This document shows positions 3,539 to 10,500 of a stretch of DNA of 10,623 bases, in pieces. Made by a program: the position numbers and the translations under genes. The DNA is from an uncultured Clostridia bacterium (GTDB lineage Bacteria > Bacillota > Clostridia > Oscillospirales > Ruminococcaceae). The stretch lies in assembly GCA_947175045.1 (NCBI GenBank), contig CAMWLH010000045.1, positions 1-10,623 of the forward strand. Reading direction: 5' to 3'. Position 1 is the first letter of the stretch. Each line of letters begins with the position of its first letter. The notes under the pieces were generated by a model. It saw only the letters and a list, made by a program, of their open reading frames with translations, made no database searches and was not told where the DNA came from.

Positions 3539-3746
3539 GGGGTTATTGCAACTTTTTCCGAATTTTCGTGAATATTGACGGAATTTTATGCCTTGCGCAG
3601 CGCCATATTATGACTTTTATACAAATTAAAATATATGCTTTGTGGGAGAAAAATATGCACGATATGATAAAGTGTTTATCTGAGCTGTAATGCGGTCAAG
3701 CGGCCTATGTTGACGTGAATTAAGTGATTATAAGAATTCCAAAAAT

Positions 3747-3757
3747 CCCGATGCGGG
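3747..3757 (-). terminator. Weak candidate terminator after pcrA
   Basis: On the minus strand, 12 nt past the pcrA stop, CCCG-CAT-CGGG forms a short hairpin followed by ATTTTTGG. The stem has only 4 bp, so this is a weak candidate, but it is the only hairpin with a following T-run in the pcrA-groES spacer. Apart from this and the groES promoter/CIRCE, the AT-rich 3539-3746 stretch holds no recognisable gene, tRNA or conserved RNA. Confidence 0.35.
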
Positions 3758-3769
3758 GGCGTTATGTCG

Positions 3770-6118
3770 CTACGCCTTTGTGATCCTCGCGAAATTCGCC
3801 ATCAGCTTTTTCTGCCCTGCGGTATCGAAACTGATGGACAGCATGGTGTCGTTGCCCATACACTTCGCGTCGGTAACCGTTCCCTCGCCGAAAACATTGT
3901 GGCGAACCCTGTCTCCCGCCGCAAAGACCTCTCCTGTAACATGGGGCGAAGCCGTCACGGGCTTTTTCGCGGATTCCTCAGCAAAATAGCTGCGCTTCTG
4001 CGGCTTCTGAAGCGGCGTGCTGCGTATCGGCGCGTCGCCCTGCCGCTCGGTGAGCGCTTCGGGGATCTCCCTTATAAAAGTCGACAGCTTGTTGGATTTG
4101 GTTTGACCGTACAGCATACGGTAGGTGGTGTGGGTAACATAGAGCTGCCTTTTGGCACGAGTTATCGCCACATAGGCGAGCCGCCGCTCCTCCTCCAGCT
4201 CTGCGGGCTCGTTAAGGCTCATATAGCTCGGGAACACGTTGTCCTCTGCCGCGACCATGAACACCGTTCCGAATTCCAGACCCTTTGCGCTGTGCATAGT
4301 CATCAGCGATACACGGTCGGTCTCGGTGTCGTAGCTGTCCAGGTCGGACACCAACGCCACCTGCTCCAGAAAATCGGGCAGAGTCGCATCGGGATTTTCC
4401 TCCAGAAGCAGCATAGCGTTTGACTTAAGCTCGTTGATATTGTCCAGCCGAGCCGCGCCCTCGTCCCCCTGCGCCTTTAGCAACTGCACATAGCCGCTCT
4501 TTACCGCCACGGCTTCAATAAGCTCGTCGAGCCGTGCGCTGTCCGCCAGCTCCTCCAGCTCGTCGAAAAGATTTGCCGCGGCTTTGAGCGCCTTTTCCTT
4601 GCGCATAAGCGCGGGCAGAGTGTCTGCGTTGCGGCATACGTCAACGGGGCTCGTCCCCAGACCTCTTGCGATATTTACTATCTCCTCTATCGTCGCGTCT
4701 CCTATGCCGCGCTTGGGCTCGTTGATTATGCGGCGGAATCTTATCTCATCGTAGGGATTGTTTATCACCGCCAGATAAGCGATAATATCCCTTATCTCCT
4801 TGCGGTCAAAGAAGCGCATTCCTCCCACTACCTTATAGGGAATGCCCGCCCTTGCCAGCGCGTTCTCATACCCTCTCGAAAGCGCGTTGGAGCGGTACAG
4901 CAGCGCGAAATCGGAGTACTTGGCTCCCGCCTGAACTCCCTCGAGAATGATATCCGTGATCGCCTTGGCCTCCATGGAATCGTTGGGGTAATTTCTTACC
5001 TGAATTTTATCGCCCTCGCCCATGTCGCTCCAAAGGGTCTTTCCTTTTCGATGGGTATTGTTGCTTATGACCGCGTTGGCTGCGTTGAGGATATTTTCGG
5101 TGGAGCGGTAATTCTGCTCCAGCCGTATTACCTCGCTGTTCGGGTACTGCTTTTCGAAGCTGAGTATATTCTCAATGGTCGCGCCGCGGAAACGGTATAT
5201 CGACTGGTCGTCGTCGCCCACCACGCAGAGGTTCGCCTTGTCTCCCGCCAACAGCGATATAAGACGGTACTGCGCCACATTTGTGTCCTGGTACTCGTCC
5301 ACCATTATGTACTTGTAGAGATTGCGGTAGTGGGACAGCACCTCGGGCTGCTGCTCAAACAGCTTTACGGTGAGATAAATAATATCGTCGAAATCCAGAG
5401 CGTTCGCCGCCGTCAGCGCCGCCTGATACTCCGAGTAGACCTGCGCGGTCTTTATCTGTATAAGCTCCGCGGACTCCTGCGCGATAGCCGCGTAATCCCG
5501 AGGCGAGAGCATCCTGTCCTTGCAGCGGGAGATATTATTCTTGAACATCTTCGGGTTCATTACCTTCTCGTCGATATTCAGCCGCTTCATTACTTCCTTG
5601 AGCACCCGCTTTGCGTCGTCGTCGTCATAAATAGTGAAGCTGCTTCTGAACCCGATATGCTCTATCTCCCTGCGGAGTATCCTCACGCAGGCAGAGTGGA
5701 ACGTGGAAGCGTTTATCTTCTCCGCGCCCTCACCTATCATATCGCAAAGGCGCTGCCGAAGCTCTCCCGCCGCCTTGTTGGTGAACGTTATTGCGAGAAT
5801 GTTCCAGGGATTGACGGGTCGCACCGCTATAATTTTCGCCAGCTTTTCCGCGTTTTCGGGAGTTTTTTCCATATCGGGAAACCCGGAAAGAAAGCGCTCC
5901 TGCTCGGGCGTGAGCGCTCTTTCCTCTGTGTCGTTGTACGCGTCTCCGAAACGCATCATGTTCGCTATCCTGTTGCACAGCACGGTAGTCTTTCCGCTGC
6001 CCGCGCCCGCTATGATAAGCACCGCTCCGTTCACCTTGAATATCGCTCTGCGCTGCATCTCGTTGGAGCGCGAAAAAAAGCTGTCGAGAGCGTTCCGCTT
6101 TAATTTTGTGTAATCCAA
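3770..6118 (-). CDS. pcrA: ATP-dependent DNA helicase PcrA/UvrD (SF1A), with an insertion in domain 1A
   Basis: This 3'-5' superfamily 1A helicase acts in nucleotide excision repair, rolling-circle replication and clearing of RNA polymerase or recombinase from DNA. From the TTG start it has 782 residues. It carries a Q-motif-like NEMQRRAI, Walker A AGAGSGKT (37-44), motif Ia ITFTNKAA, Walker B DEYQDT (274-279), motif III GDDDQSIYRFRGA (301-313), motif IV QNYRST (335-340), motif V TMHSAKGLEF (607-616) and motif VI YVAITRAKRQLY (649-660). A C-terminal Tudor-like domain (about 735-781, GDRVRHNVFGEGTV) binds RNA polymerase in PcrA. Between Walker A and motif Ia there are about 41 residues (roughly 58-100) absent from Bacillus-type PcrA. 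The TTG at 6118 is chosen because AAAGGA lies 6 nt upstream and the protein then opens MDYTKLKRN, as in PcrA. A longer TTG reading from 6166 would run through a structured repeat and is unlikely. Confidence 0.95.
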   Translation of the reverse strand: MDYTKLKRNALDSFFSRSNEMQRRAIFKVNGAVLIIAGAGSGKTTVLCNRIANMMRFGDAYNDTEERALTPEQERFLSGFPDMEKTPENAEKLAKIIAVRPVNPWNILAITFTNKAAGELRQRLCDMIGEGAEKINASTFHSACVRILRREIEHIGFRSSFTIYDDDDAKRVLKEVMKRLNIDEKVMNPKMFKNNISRCKDRMLSPRDYAAIAQESAELIQIKTAQVYSEYQAALTAANALDFDDIIYLTVKLFEQQPEVLSHYRNLYKYIMVDEYQDTNVAQYRLISLLAGDKANLCVVGDDDQSIYRFRGATIENILSFEKQYPNSEVIRLEQNYRSTENILNAANAVISNNTHRKGKTLWSDMGEGDKIQVRNYPNDSMEAKAITDIILEGVQAGAKYSDFALLYRSNALSRGYENALARAGIPYKVVGGMRFFDRKEIRDIIAYLAVINNPYDEIRFRRIINEPKRGIGDATIEEIVNIARGLGTSPVDVCRNADTLPALMRKEKALKAAANLFDELEELADSARLDELIEAVAVKSGYVQLLKAQGDEGAARLDNINELKSNAMLLLEENPDATLPDFLEQVALVSDLDSYDTETDRVSLMTMHSAKGLEFGTVFMVAAEDNVFPSYMSLNEPAELEEERRLAYVAITRAKRQLYVTHTTYRMLYGQTKSNKLSTFIREIPEALTERQGDAPIRSTPLQKPQKRSYFAEESAKKPVTASPHVTGEVFAAGDRVRHNVFGEGTVTDAKCMGNDTMLSISFDTAGQKKLMANFARITKA

Positions 6119-6130
6119 ATTATGTCCTTT

Positions 6131-6344
6131 CTTATTTGAAAAAATTTTTCGCACCGCGCCGAACAAGTCGGCGCCAGCCCACCGTAAAAGCTCCGCTACA
6201 CTCCGCTGCGCTCCGTTTCGTTACGCTTTCACGGCGGCTTGCGAAAAATTTGGCTGCGCGGGCTTTATGTCGCTCTTTGCGAGCGTTGTTTTGCTTTGAG
6301 AGCAAATGTTGCTCTATGCGAACGACCCTTTGCTGCGCGTGTGG
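6131..6344 (-). repeat. Intergenic structured repeat, copy A (leader of pcrA)
   Basis: This element fills most of the gap between the SPFH gene and pcrA and is homologous to 7333-7506. An outer stem pairs AAATTTTTCGCA (6142-6153) with TGCGAAAAATTT (6240-6251). It encloses hairpin I, GCGCCGA/TCGGCGC (6156-6162/6168-6174, 5-nt loop), and hairpin II, CCGTAAAAGC/GCTTTCACGG (6182-6191/6225-6234, one mismatch). Homology to copy B continues past the outer stem to about 6344, including CTCTTTGC. The outer stem ends 23 nt before the pcrA TTG, the same distance as copy B from its gene. It could be a structured 5' UTR or a MITE/REP-like repeat. No promoter or protein-coding function is evident. The remainder, 6345-6399, shows nothing recognisable. 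Confidence 0.75.
6267..6324. repeat. 39-bp-period direct duplication inside repeat copy A
   Basis: ATGTCGCTCTTTGCGAGCG (6267-6285) recurs as ATGTTGCTCTATGCGAACG (6306-6324), with 3 differences in 19 bp and a period of 39 bp. A further TTTGCT match follows in each unit. The corresponding part of copy B has only one unit, so the duplication accounts for most of the length difference between copies. Within and between the units lie the small hairpins CGCTC/GAGCG (6271-6285) and TTTGCT/AGCAAA (6290-6306). Confidence 0.65.
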
Positions 6345-6399
6345 TTTGCAGCCTTAAGCTTTCACCGCCCTTGACCGCTGCGTTTTACATTATCGCCGC

Positions 6400-7323
6400 T
6401 TATCCCGCTGTATTGCTCGGAGCGCTTTGATTTCTCACCGCCGCCGCGGTCTGCGAGCTGTCCCCGTCAAGCACTATAAACGGGTTTATATCATTCCCTA
6501 TCGCCTGCGGGAGCTCTCCGTTCCAGTTATTTATCTTAAGATAATCGATATAATTCGGAGACTTTGCGAGCTGCTCCTGAACCACCTGGATAGCATACGC
6601 CTCAGCTTCCGCCTTTATCCTCTGAGAATCCGCCTCCGCTTGAGCCGCAATGACCTTCTGGCGTGCTTCCTCCTCACGCTCTACCGTCTTGTTCTGCATT
6701 TTCAGAGCGTCCTGCGCCGCTATGACCTTCGCTTGGATAGACTCCTCAAACGCGTCGTCAAAGTCCAGGTTTTCTATCGCGAATGCCGTCACCACTATCC
6801 CGTTCGGCGCAAGGGTCTCCTTAAGCACCTCATATATCGCGTCCTGTACCTCCGAGCGCGACTGCACCAGATCCTCCGCCCTTACCTTGCCTATCTCGTT
6901 CTTTGAGATCTTAGCCACGTTAGGCACCAGCAGCTTTGTTTCCACATTCTCAATACCCGTCGACCTTATGATATCCGAAAGCTGCGTCGGGTCGTAGCAG
7001 TAATTCAGCTTCAACGACAGGCTGTCCACCGTCTGCGTATCGCTGGTATAAGCGTTCGTCTGCACCGAATATATCTGCTCCCGTATATCCACGGGTCTTA
7101 TCTCTTCAATAAACGGGATATGGAAATTAAGCCCCGCCGAAAGACTGCTGTCCACTATCTTCCCGAACTGGTACTTTACCCCTATATATCCCTCGTCAAC
7201 CACCGAAAAGCAGTTGAACACCAATACCACCAATGCGATCACAATGACGGCTATCAATACCAGCTTCGTGATATTAGGCTTTTTTTCTCCGTTACTTTGA
7301 GTTGAAAAATTCTGTGTACCCAT
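6400..7323 (-). CDS. SPFH/prohibitin-family membrane protein
   Basis: This 307-residue member of the SPFH (stomatin/prohibitin/flotillin/HflK-C) superfamily is a type of membrane-anchored scaffold that oligomerises and organises membrane microdomains or modulates proteases. It has a short hydrophilic N-terminus, one membrane segment (about 20-38), the SPFH domain beginning VVDEGYIGVKYQFGKIVDSSLSAGLNFHIPF (41-71, split by family-typical Gly and Pro positions), and a charged Glu/Ala/Lys-rich coiled coil (about 200-252). The C-terminal tail is Ser/Ala/Asn-rich and probably disordered. It is closest to the prohibitin-like group rather than to HflK or HflC specifically. The ATG at 7323 follows AAGGAG with a 6-7 nt gap. 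No NfeD-type partner or protease gene is adjacent. The gene is flanked on both sides by same-orientation copies of the intergenic repeat, and copy B forms its leader. Confidence 0.93.
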   Translation of the reverse strand: MGTQNFSTQSNGEKKPNITKLVLIAVIVIALVVLVFNCFSVVDEGYIGVKYQFGKIVDSSLSAGLNFHIPFIEEIRPVDIREQIYSVQTNAYTSDTQTVDSLSLKLNYCYDPTQLSDIIRSTGIENVETKLLVPNVAKISKNEIGKVRAEDLVQSRSEVQDAIYEVLKETLAPNGIVVTAFAIENLDFDDAFEESIQAKVIAAQDALKMQNKTVEREEEARQKVIAAQAEADSQRIKAEAEAYAIQVVQEQLAKSPNYIDYLKINNWNGELPQAIGNDINPFIVLDGDSSQTAAAVRNQSAPSNTAG

Positions 7324-7332
7324 TCAATTCTC

Positions 7333-7506
7333 CTTATCTGAATTTGAAATTTTCCGCACCGCAGGAACGTTGCAAAGCAACGTTCCTGCTAGCCCGCCCA
7401 TAAAGCTCCGCCCGCTTTGCGGGCTGCGCTTTATGAGCGGCTTGCGAAAAATTTCCTGCGTGGGCTGAACGCAGCTCTTTGCCGACGTTGCTTCGCTGCG
7501 TGGGCG
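7333..7506 (-). repeat. Intergenic structured repeat, copy B (leader of the SPFH gene)
   Basis: This is the homologue of copy A. The outer stem pairs AAATTTTCCGCA (7347-7358) with TGCGAAAAATTT (7443-7454), with one mismatch. Hairpin I is a perfect 13-bp stem, GCAGGAACGTTGC/GCAACGTTCCTGC (7361-7373/7377-7389), with a loop of AAA. Hairpin II pairs CATAAAGC (7399-7406) with GCTTTATG (7428-7435) and GCCCGC (7410-7415) with GCGGGC (7419-7424). An 18-bp block (7437-7454) is identical to 6234-6251 of copy A. The outer stem ends 23 nt before the SPFH ATG. It fills nearly the whole space between the large activase-type gene and the SPFH gene. Confidence 0.8.
7447..7474 (-). terminator. Possible terminator after the large activase-type gene
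   Basis: On the minus strand, CTGCGT (7469-7474) pairs with ACGCAG (7456-7461) around a 7-nt loop and is followed by GAAATTTTT. The stem is 6 bp and is separated from the T-run by four bases, so it is weak. The same CTGCGT arm could instead pair with an upstream copy of ACGCAGC (7495-7501), giving two mutually exclusive folds. Confidence 0.3.
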
Positions 7507-7547
7507 ATATGTTGACATCGGCTTGCGGCGCTCAGCCATTCTTTCCG

Positions 7548-10500
7548 TCAGTTGTTCATTGTCAGCAGCTCGGAATACTTGTCCTCTGTCTTGATATGCG
7601 GAGCGACAGCTCTCCTGCTTATCCCAGCGTTGGAGAATGCCTGCGTGAGCATCAGCTTTATTCTGTTCACCTGATTTACCTCGGAAGCGCCTGGGTCGAA
7701 ATCCACCGCAACGATATTGCTCTCCGGGTGCTGACGGCGAAGCTCGCCGATAACTCCCTTGCCCGTTACATGATTCGGCAGGCACGCGAAAGGCTGCATG
7801 CAAACTATGTTCGGCACGCCCTCCTCTATAAGCTCCAGCATTTCCGCGGACAGGAACCAGCCCTCTCCCGCGATATTGCCGGGGGAAACGATAGCCTTTA
7901 CACGCTCCCTCATCTCAAAAATATCCCCGGGACAGCCGAATTTTGTGCCCTTTACCGCCTTGCGGTAGCTCCTCTCCATAAACCGTATAGCCTTGATAGC
8001 CGCGTTGTCCGCGAACTTTGTCGTCCCCGAAATATACAGCAGCTCGCTCTTGGTCACGCCGTGAGAGCATATATAGTAGAAAAATCCCATAAGATCGGGC
8101 ACTACTACCTCGCAGCCCTCGCTTTCCAACAGCCCTATGATATCATTATTCGCCACCGGGTGGAATTTAACCAGAATTTCTCCAACAAGTCCAACCTTAG
8201 GCTTCTGAATATCCTTTACGGGGAACTTTTCAAATTCCTTTACTATATTCCTTACATTGTCGTTGAACCGCTTCAGTGAGAGCGTTTTAAGCTCCTCGCG
8301 CAGGAACACTCTCCACTTCTCATACAGCTTGTTGGCGCTCCCCTTTACTTTTTCGTAGGGACGCACCTTGTACAGACAGCGCGAGAGCACGTCGCCGTAC
8401 ACTATACCCATAAACGCCCTAACCGCCATAGGCACAGACAGCTTGAAGCCGCTCTGCTTTTCCAGACCCACAACGTTCAGCGATATAAGCGGAACGTTGG
8501 CGAAGCCCGCGTCCTTGAGCGCCTTTTTGAGCATTCCCACATAATTGGTCGCGCGGCACGCGCCGCCCGTCTGGGTTATCATGACCGAGGTCTTTTCAAT
8601 ATCGTATTTTCCGCTGTTAAGCGCGTGTATAAGCTGCCCCACGACCAGTATCGACGGATAGCAGGCATCGTTGTTGACATACTTTAATCCCTCGTCCACC
8701 ACCGATTTTGAACAGTCGGTGAGTATCACTACGTTATATCCGCTGTGATTGAACGCCGCCTCCAGCATATCAAAATGAATAGGTGCCATCTGCGGGCAGA
8801 GTATGGTGTGAGTTTCCCGCATTTCCTTGGTGAACTCGGGCTGGCGTATGTAGCCGAGGTGTCCGCGCACAGGCTTGTATTGGTGCCGCTCCCGCTCGTC
8901 CACTACCGAGATAAGCGAGCGCAGGCGTATCCTTGCCGCGCCGAGGTTGTTTACCTCGTCTATTTTAAGGCAGGTGTACAGCTTGCCGAAGCTGCGGAGT
9001 ATCTCCTGCACCTGGTCGGTCGTGATAGCGTCCAGACCGCAGCCGAAGCTGTTGAGCTGCACCAGCTCCAGGCACTCGTGCTTGCCCACGACGTGTGCTG
9101 CCGCGTACAGCCTTGTGTGGTAAGTCCACTGATCTACAACACGGATAGGACGCACCACCTGCTCCATATGAGCCACACTGTCCTCAGTGAGCACCGCGAA
9201 GCCGTAGCCCGCTATCATTTCGGGCAATCCGTGATTTATCTCGGGGTCGACATGGTAGGGTCTTCCCGCGAGAACTATGCCTCGCTTGCCGTTTTCCTCG
9301 AGGTATTTCAGGGTTTCCTCACCCTTGCGGCGCATTTCCCGCTTGAAAGATTCGTCCTCCTCATATGCCAGCTTAAGCGCGTCGGTGATCTCGGTTTTGG
9401 TTATATTATACTCGGGAATACGCTGTGAAAACTCTTCAAAAAGCCGCTCCACCATACGCTTGCGGTGGAATATCGGCAGGAAGGGATTGAGGAACTTAAC
9501 GTCCTCGCGCAGCTCGGGAACGGAATTTTTGATGACCTCGCTGTATGTAGCTACCACGGGGCAGTTATAATGATTGTCTCCGCCGTTGCCGTCTCCCATC
9601 TCATAGGGTATCGAGGGGTAGAATATCAGTTTTATCCCGCTGTCGATAAGCGCCTGTATATGTCCGTGAGCCAGCTTTGCGGGATAGCACACCGACTCGG
9701 AGGGCATGGTCTCGATCCCTCTGTCGTAGATATCGCGGGAAGATTTCGGCGAGAGCTTAACGCAGAAGCCGAGCCCGCTGAACAGCTTATGCCAGAACGG
9801 GTAGTTCTCATACATACCCAGTACCCGCGGGAAGCCAATGATGCCGCGCCTTGCCACGTCCGCGGGCATACTGTCGCGGGCGAAGAGGAGGCGGTATTTG
9901 TATTCGTAAAGATTCGGCAGCTTTTCCGTGCCCGAAACGTTGCCTGCGCCGCGCTCGCAGCGGTTGTTGCTTATATAGCGCTTGCCGTCGGGGAATTTTG
10001 TTATGGTGAGCAGGCAGTTGTTGCTGCATTTTCCGCAGCGTGCGGCGGTTTTCTCTGCCTTAAAGCCATCCAGCATTTCAGCCGTGGAGAGCATACTGCC
10101 CTTTCCGTCGTCGCGTTCGAGTGAGATGAGCGCGCTGCCGTAGGCTCCCATAAGACCCGCCTTATCGGGGCGCACGACTTCCTTTCCGCAGATAAGCTCA
10201 AAGGCGCGGAGCACGCTGTCGTTCATAAACGTGCCGCCTTGAACGATTATCTTTTCACCCATATCAGAGGTGTCGCGCAGCTTTATTACCTTAAACAGCG
10301 CGTTTTTTACCACCGAGTAGCTTAAGCCCGCGGAGATATCCGCGACGGTAGCGCCCTCCTTCTGAGCCTGCTTTACGCGGGAGTTCATGAAAACCGTGCA
10401 GCGCGAGCCGAGGTCGACGGGGTTCTGCGCGGTAAGACCCAGCTTTGCGAAATCCGCCGAGGACATATCCAGCGCGTTCGCGAAATTCTCGATAAACGAG

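Follow-up and report, generated by a model that had tools for sequence, protein, structure and literature searches.

Short structured repeats, probably mobile, lying before Shine-Dalgarno sequences in an uncultured gut Clostridia genus

The window analysed here, a stretch of 10,623 nucleotides from an uncultured Clostridia bacterium, carries two diverged copies of a structured intergenic element that recurs throughout the host genome. The preferred reading, with a probability of roughly 0.6, is that these are short structured mobile repeats that multiplied in this uncultured gut Clostridia genus, inserting between stop codons and Shine-Dalgarno (SD) sequences and tolerated there through self-folding. 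The family has a high copy number, a covarying structure, a species-specific occurrence and tandem arrays, and relatives contain element-free sites. In the host (G000) and one genus mate (G018), two of the four genomes examined in this respect, most copies occupy an SD-abutting, sense-strand position.

The two copies in the window

Both elements are on the minus strand, 5' of a pcrA/uvrD-type helicase gene and of an SPFH/Band 7 gene, respectively. An earlier note had described them as diverged three-stem copies in the same orientation relative to their genes, and this holds: each outer stem contains two inner hairpins. In both copies 23 nt separate the outer stem from the start codon (6141-6119, TTG of pcrA; 7346-7324, ATG of the SPFH gene). 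The spans then assigned, 6131-6344 and 7333-7506, do contain the element, and continue past the outer stem to take in another shared module on its 5' side. The parts are as follows, all on the minus strand; R1 is the covariance model described below.

3770..6118, minus: pcrA/uvrD-type helicase gene, TTG start
6125..6130, minus: pcrA Shine-Dalgarno AAAGGA (sequence)
6132..6141, minus: copy 1 AU-rich tail TTTCAAATAA (sequence)
6142..6263, minus: copy 1 three-way-junction core, before pcrA (R1 match, 109.6 bits)
6142..6153, minus: copy 1 outer stem, 3' arm TGCGAAAAATTT (sequence and fold)
6156..6174, minus: copy 1 hairpin 3, GCGCCGACTTGTTCGGCGC, the interchangeable hairpin (fold and alignment)
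6177..6239, minus: copy 1 hairpin 2, limits approximate (fold)
6240..6251, minus: copy 1 outer stem, 5' arm AAATTTTTCGCA (sequence and fold)
6254..6344, minus: copy 1 5' modules, M repeats, limits approximate
6400..7323, minus: SPFH/Band 7 protein gene, ATG start
7330..7335, minus: SPFH gene Shine-Dalgarno AAGGAG, its AA shared with the copy 2 tail (sequence)
7334..7346, minus: copy 2 AU-rich tail CAAATTCAGATAA (sequence)
7347..7465, minus: copy 2 three-way-junction core, before the SPFH gene (R1 match, 112.7 bits)
7347..7358, minus: copy 2 outer stem, 3' arm TGCGGAAAATTT (sequence and fold)
7361..7389, minus: copy 2 hairpin 3, GCAGGAACGTTGCTTTGCAACGTTCCTGC (fold and alignment)
7392..7441, minus: copy 2 hairpin 2, limits approximate (fold)
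7443..7454, minus: copy 2 outer stem, 5' arm AAATTTTTCGCA (sequence and fold)
7455..7506, minus: copy 2 5' module, M repeat, limits approximate
about 3671..3771, minus: core-less element remnant 3' of pcrA (M module, stem scraps, tail, M' module)

Folding of the gene strand gave z scores of -4.10 for 6119-6360 and -7.76 for 7324-7520, with none of 200 shuffles as stable in either case. Rfam had no match in the window, and at relaxed E values 6100-7560 gave three weak matches far below gathering scores, in keeping with the earlier remark that no known RNA family was recognised. The core-less remnant is a third trace of the element in the window, missing from the earlier list; its best local score is 106, against 59.5 as the top of 100 shuffles.

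A repeat family in the host and its genus

The host genome is a MAG of 2.55 Mb in 443 contigs, 78% complete. BLAST of each copy against it gave 70 and 71 matches, numbers that show the element pair not to be a product of chance. From the first loci 44 cores were collected by pattern, and 36 of them were aligned to build R1; the search for further copies by covariance model, which the earlier note had proposed, brought at least 146 host copies and diverged relatives in nine of 36 sampled genus mates. In the host, with 150 of the 2388 first-look candidates scored, R1 matched at least 140 times at E<=0.1, the hits being spread over 95 contigs; in 99 fetched host regions it matched at least 146 times at E<=1e-7. 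The 131 host copies of 40 bits or more form 118 clusters (107 single copies, nine pairs and two triplets), and the element family is a species-specific repeat with tandem arrays.

Among 61 genomes, with 58 candidates scored in each under strict filters, ten had members at E<=1e-4, namely the host and the nine genus mates; the 24 drawn from the order's other families gave no match. Among the mates that were searched again, counts ran from one (G020) to 73 (G032), with 36 in G018 and nine in G006; G013 had none. A broader model, R2, matched the host only among 295 genomes of the order, a result that, with 13 candidates per genome and strict filters, says little about distant relatives. Copy 2 had no match in phage and plasmid records, and an exact 25-base pattern of the element's own type had none in genome-contig and viral-contig collections, which may omit the host itself. 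At no more than 80% identity, the closest named records for the SPFH protein come from MAGs whose titles read Oscillospiraceae bacterium, Ruminococcaceae bacterium or uncultured Clostridia bacterium, and R1 run on 72 nearest-record SPFH loci gave six matches at E<=0.002, in five loci. No account of this repeat family was found in the literature searched, a search that left most subscription papers outside.

Structure and strand

The unit opens with a 5' module (...AAAGAGCAACATAAAGCCCACGCAG), which is followed by the core and then by the AU-rich tail TTTAAAT(A/C)A. The core, of about 80-125 nt, is an outer stem around one or two interchangeable hairpins, and it is the outer stem and the tail that are constant across members. 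Hairpin 3 is represented in the 36-copy alignment by many unrelated yet self-complementary sequences; as judged by eye, it is absent in short members, and hairpin 2 is absent in one (C103). In G018 the outer stem is GCAAATTCGGCA and variants, and the convergent copies of G032 have an extra 3' module, CAACAGCCCCTCGTCAACATTATAAAAC and variants.

In the 36 host copies, 17 of 26 pairs have pair-keeping changes on both sides. The covariation score was 0.341, against 0.138+-0.010 for shuffled alignments and at most 0.128 with partner columns slid, a comparison in which the host structure, derived from the same alignment, is favoured over the slid controls. A replicate with other stem sequences was provided by 27 copies of G018 (of 33 matches in fetched regions, ends trimmed by hand), which gave 22 of 30 pairs and a score of 0.496 against 0.186+-0.012 shuffled. 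On the gene strand, G-U pairs exceed A-C mismatches by 201:48 in the 146 host copies (model pairs, two 5'-module pairs excluded), by 46:10 in the 36-copy alignment and by 41:9 in G018, and still by 121:46 (host) and 25:9 (G018) when the commonest G-U pair is omitted, an excess to which strand-biased C-to-T mutation may contribute. Among distinct host copies of 70 nt or more, 131 of 142 fold more stably in the sense than in the antisense direction, as do 25 of the 27 from G018; these statistics come from related copies and so overstate their independence. Such biases suggest that the fold is of consequence on the sense single strand.

Placement relative to genes

Genes were called with a simple purpose-made caller (codon scores and SD), which on the window gave the same two starts as the earlier note, and placement was scored on the 3'-most copy of each of the 118 host clusters. 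Of 104 scorable clusters, 81 lie at most 35 nt before a same-strand start; 17 others lie further from a same-strand gene and six before a convergent gene. The remaining 14 of the 118 were unscorable (contig end, or no gene on the fragment). As a control for orientation, a gene on the opposite strand lies 5' of 12 of the 131 host copies of 40 bits or more, the closest such start being 64 nt away, so that an opposite-strand start within 35 nt occurs in none of the 131. The 23 nt common to the window copies had been presented as an exact distance. As a special value it was rejected, 17 of the 81 start-adjacent copies having exactly 23 nt and 77 being spread over 17-26 nt; the equal distances are a coincidence within a real constraint, the abutment of the tail TTTAAAT(A/C)A on the SD.

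In the other genomes the arrangement varies. In G018 no cluster is convergent, and 23 of 29 end at most 35 nt ahead of a same-strand start; in G032 the latter figure is 16 of 43, with 15 convergent, ten further off on the same strand and two without a gene (24 and 36 fetched regions, holding part of the 36 and 73 matches, respectively). Two of nine G006 copies are SD-adjacent. SD-abutment is therefore the rule in G000 and G018 but not universal, with G032 and G006 showing it only in part. Such one-sided placement is unusual for a mobile repeat, and is weaker in G032 and G006.

The junction with the Shine-Dalgarno sequence

Of 82 genes with the element, 57 are preceded by AT(A/C)AGGAG, as against 19 of 213 without it. 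Similar AAAT(A/C)A ends recur inside tandem arrays, before TTTGG and other sequences, an indication that the element supplies the tail and the gene the GGAG. A few copies adjoin the ATG itself without an SD, and at the pcrA SD position several relatives have SDs of the AAAGGAAGG or AAAGGACGG type. When gene scores were relaxed slightly, giving 85 genes that have the element and 230 that do not, SD-start spacing was shorter where the element is present (mean 6.33, n=66, against 7.55, n=135), and AAG preceded the start in 13 of 85 genes as compared with 3 of 230. In view of these differences in spacing and AAG frequency, the SD and spacer may travel along with the element.

Partition-function folding of positions -150 to +36 gave an unpaired probability for -14 to +6 of 0.585 in 85 genes with the element and 0.481 in 228 without. 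Shuffling of -150 to -26 lowered this openness to 0.504, the real sequence being more open in 71 of the 85 genes. The element is predicted to fold on itself and to spare the SD, leaving the initiation region open, a predicted property that fits a selfish, harm-avoiding element and a useful leader alike.

Element-free sites in relatives

The window locus was examined in 29 relatives that share its gene order, all of them for the SPFH-pcrA gap and 26 also for the gap before the SPFH gene. R1 found the element at the two window sites in one of 29 (G032, before pcrA) and R2 added one more (G063, before the SPFH gene), so that by both models the sites are element-free in 27 of 29; the SPFH-pcrA gap is only 8-20 nt in 13 of the 29. 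Because 27 of 29 relatives are without it at these sites, the element is probably a mobile repeat and not an inherited riboswitch-like leader, for which conservation at orthologous genes would be expected; at the two window sites an element, inherited or independently inserted, is present in one (R1) or two (R2) of 29.

A closer comparison was available between G006 (nine R1 matches) and G013 (none), which are 95.6% identical over the window locus. Six G006 sites were searched in G013 and five aligned, three being empty and two holding an unrelated palindrome. Among the empty sites only L246 corresponds to an SD-adjacent G006 copy; the G013 genes overlap there and the SD region differs. At L253, the other SD-adjacent G006 site, G013 has an unrelated palindrome before an identical SD and spacer, AAGGAGGTTCAACCCA. 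No target-site duplication was evident by eye at the three empty G013 sites, where the flanks at the junctions have diverged. Polymorphic presence of this kind is a MITE trait, as are the short, non-coding, multicopy nature of the element, its inverted terminal arms and its extensive fold.

The two explanations offered in the earlier note, a structured leader and a small palindromic mobile repeat, thus each keep a part. The near-fixed distance before starts that had suggested a leader is real; sites without the element in relatives bear out mobility. Host copies do not occur in all orientations and positions, and in G032 and G006 many copies do lie away from starts. The two outcomes that had been set as support for one or the other, near-fixed start distance and element-free sites, hold together. 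The suggestion of a repeat inserting next to, or carrying, an SD fits best among the ideas of that note.

Candidate mobilising enzymes

A search for Y1 transposases at E<=1e-5 took in 23 genus members and 14 genomes from other families, 37 in all, with five carriers among them. No match at this threshold was obtained in carriers G018 and G021; the G000 match is a stop-containing fragment, those in G020 have stops or are partial, and carrier G006 has an intact-looking frame of 167 aa, with the non-carrier twin G013 lacking Y1. Among 20 genomes of the genus, reverse transcriptase (RT) was present in five of ten carriers against two of ten others and IS110 transposase in three of ten against three of ten, with neither found in G000 and G032. 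Y1, IS110 and RT genes were tried as movers, and their occurrence does not track the element. No transposase was recognised by eye among the translated genes beside nine copies, and no mobilising gene or parent transposon was found among the Y1, IS110 and RT genes covered, negatives that MAG incompleteness weakens for the host (78%) and G032 (80%) and hardly for G018 (99%).

Interpretation

Under the preferred reading, new copies would insert in the interval from an upstream gene's stop codon to the SD of the following gene, joining the element's tail to that SD. The host would tolerate them there since the sense RNA forms its own structure and keeps the SD and start codon accessible. Propagation would require an enzyme, and the strong polarity favours a one-strand process, through single-stranded DNA or RNA, over symmetrical-duplex cut-and-paste. 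Any effect on the downstream gene, such as a standby site or intercistronic mRNA protection, would be secondary and is putative. Against insertion before a native SD is the difference in SD-start spacing with and without the element, which is not predicted, and L246, with its differing SD regions in G006 and G013, gives no support for a native SD having been kept. A possible, if tentative, alternative is that the element is an RNA-structured mobile module that is directed to translation-initiation regions or moves together with them. Read on the sense strand, it would have its tail joined to an SD, perhaps bring SD and spacer with it, and produce standardised leaders genome-wide; the basis of this proposal is the uniform AAAT(A/C)AGGAG junctions, the shorter SD-start spacing and the more frequent AAG before the start.

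Sense-strand structure with its GU bias, the near-fixed position before the SD, the predicted open initiation region, and the AAG (13/85 against 3/230) and spacing (6.33 against 7.55 nt) differences would also suit a functional cis-regulatory or mRNA-stabilising leader, kept and spread by the host and tuning downstream translation or decay, for example through a 5' exonuclease block and an AU-rich 30S standby site. This is judged unlikely, however: the element is not conserved at orthologous genes at the two window sites, convergent and tandem copies occur, hairpin 2 or hairpin 3 is missing in some members, and no functional theme is apparent to the eye in the two window genes and the genes beside nine copies. 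Distinctly doubtful is an ordinary MITE with random insertion, SD adjacency then being due to purifying selection, with stop-to-SD gaps as the sole dispensable DNA between co-directional genes. The short element-free gaps (8-20 nt between SPFH and pcrA genes in 13 of 29 relatives), the overlapping element-free genes at one G006/G013 site and the convergent position of 15 of 43 G032 clusters agree with it, but positional selection alone hardly explains the lack of antisense copies at starts, and the tail-GGAG junction is likewise hard to explain by position. Convergent clusters, moreover, number 6 of 104 in G000 and 0 of 29 in G018, unlike pneumococcal repeats, figures that are raw counts, uncorrected for how common convergent gaps are in these genomes.

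The G032 convergent clusters (15 of 43) could also be taken for bidirectional terminators, with an A-tract/U-tract outer stem (arms AAAATTTT), some of which lie before genes by chance. Seven terminator-like sites occur in 5900-7700 against 2.1+-1.5 in shuffled sequence (loops of 3-8 only, the outer stem being outside the scan), and one of them, minus strand 7474-7456, is the copy 2 5' module with the first stem arm. Yet an SD-adjacent copy leaves no room for a promoter before its gene, and genes like pcrA would be shut off if termination were complete, which makes this explanation very improbable. Equally little probability is given to the idea that the element is of REP type and is mobilised by a Y1 (RAYT/IS200) transposase: palindromes, single-strand polarity and the G006/G013 contrast in Y1 speak for it, and against it are the lack of Y1 at E<=1e-5 in G018 (99% complete, 36 matches) and G021 and the stop in the G000 fragment.

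Comparison with known repeats

Interspersed palindromic repeats are usually thought to survive where they are least harmful. The present family sits, in the host and G018, where most harm would be expected, directly before ribosome-binding sites and in one orientation. If the preferred reading is confirmed, about 80 natural inserted leaders in one genome would be available for relating upstream structure to translation and mRNA decay, and a new mobilising mechanism with polarity toward SD sequences would be indicated.

In the BOX repeats of Streptococcus pneumoniae, boxA and boxC form the outer stem. The accessible text of PMC3049150 describes BOX in terms that resemble the present element, as modular, high in copy number, structured, intergenic and possibly affecting neighbouring genes; in the same text, BOX, RUP and SPRITE occur more often than expected between convergent genes, and BOX-to-gene distances decay gradually. 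In contrast, the 3' end here (G000, G018) abuts the SD in one orientation, a distinction of placement. REP/BIME sequences with their RAYTs are likewise many short palindromes, some of them arrayed, but carriers G018 and G021 have no Y1 match (G006 has one) and the core here is 80-125 nt with a junction. Because Y1 is absent in two carriers, the element is not filed as REP/RAYT. CGTC-tagged REPs, said in the accessible text of PMC3733652 to have no dedicated transposase, offer a parallel as a repeat class without an identified transposase, and differ in being palindromes of 20-40 bp.

MITEs (Correia, ERIC and RUP; also bcr1) are similar in being non-coding, with inverted terminal arms, a strong fold and polymorphic presence. 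They differ in that no parent transposon was found here (Y1, IS110 and RT genes only), no duplication was seen and polarity to starts is strong; in the accessible text of a MITE review (PMC10969869) the terms "Shine", "ribosome" and "start codon" do not occur. With no duplication seen and no parent found, the element is not filed as a proven MITE. It behaves like a BOX/MITE-type interspersed repeat, modular, structured, multicopy and polymorphic, and differs from these in its placement.

Remnant and variants of the element in the host genome

In the window, a remnant of the three-way-junction element was recognized by local alignment score:

3671-3771, - strand, remnant that lacks the core, directly 3' of pcrA

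Its parts are the module, scraps of stem, the tail TTATAATCA and the 3' module, and its top local score of 106 compares with a maximum of 59.5 among 100 shuffles. Elsewhere in the host genome, a subfamily of the element having a distinct hairpin 3 and the tail GCATTTAAATAATTTG is found on contigs C54, C24, C60, C33, C193 and C152, with the next gene convergent on C54, C24, C60 and C193. By eye, the apex of hairpin 2 in many copies apparently consists of pentamer-like repeats (GCAGC GGAAC GAAGT GGAGC) that vary in number, with GGAGC being common.

Other repeats and a transposase frame in relatives

Long, repeat-like intergenic sequences of other kinds occur in the same two gaps (before the SPFH gene, and between it and pcrA) of relatives, in loci L210 (genome G014), L208 (G004), L223 (G025) and L227 (G009); neither R1 nor R2, the narrower and broader covariance models of the element, matched these gap sequences. 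A 167-aa Y1-transposase frame is present on contig C133 (locus L258) of G006, a genus mate that carries the element, and is absent from G013, its 95.6%-identical, element-free twin. G013 has a second palindromic family, unrelated to the element and of the form CAGACTGTCGA...variable hairpins...CAACAGTCTG, which occupies several intergenic gaps (L276, L277, L279, L280); at two of its sites the G006 counterpart is the present element.

A third palindrome, on two contigs within element matches

A third small palindrome, GTTTTGCGCAA...TTGCGCAAAAC, was observed in the host genome, with 20 half-sites in the regions fetched around R1 matches to the element:

C131, C20, C33, C3, C44, C322, C281, C88, C46, C16, C268, C265: contigs with the GTTTTGCGCAA...TTGCGCAAAAC palindrome

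Because its coordinates on C46 and C88 fall within matches to the element, the hairpins of the element may be landing sites for other palindromes.
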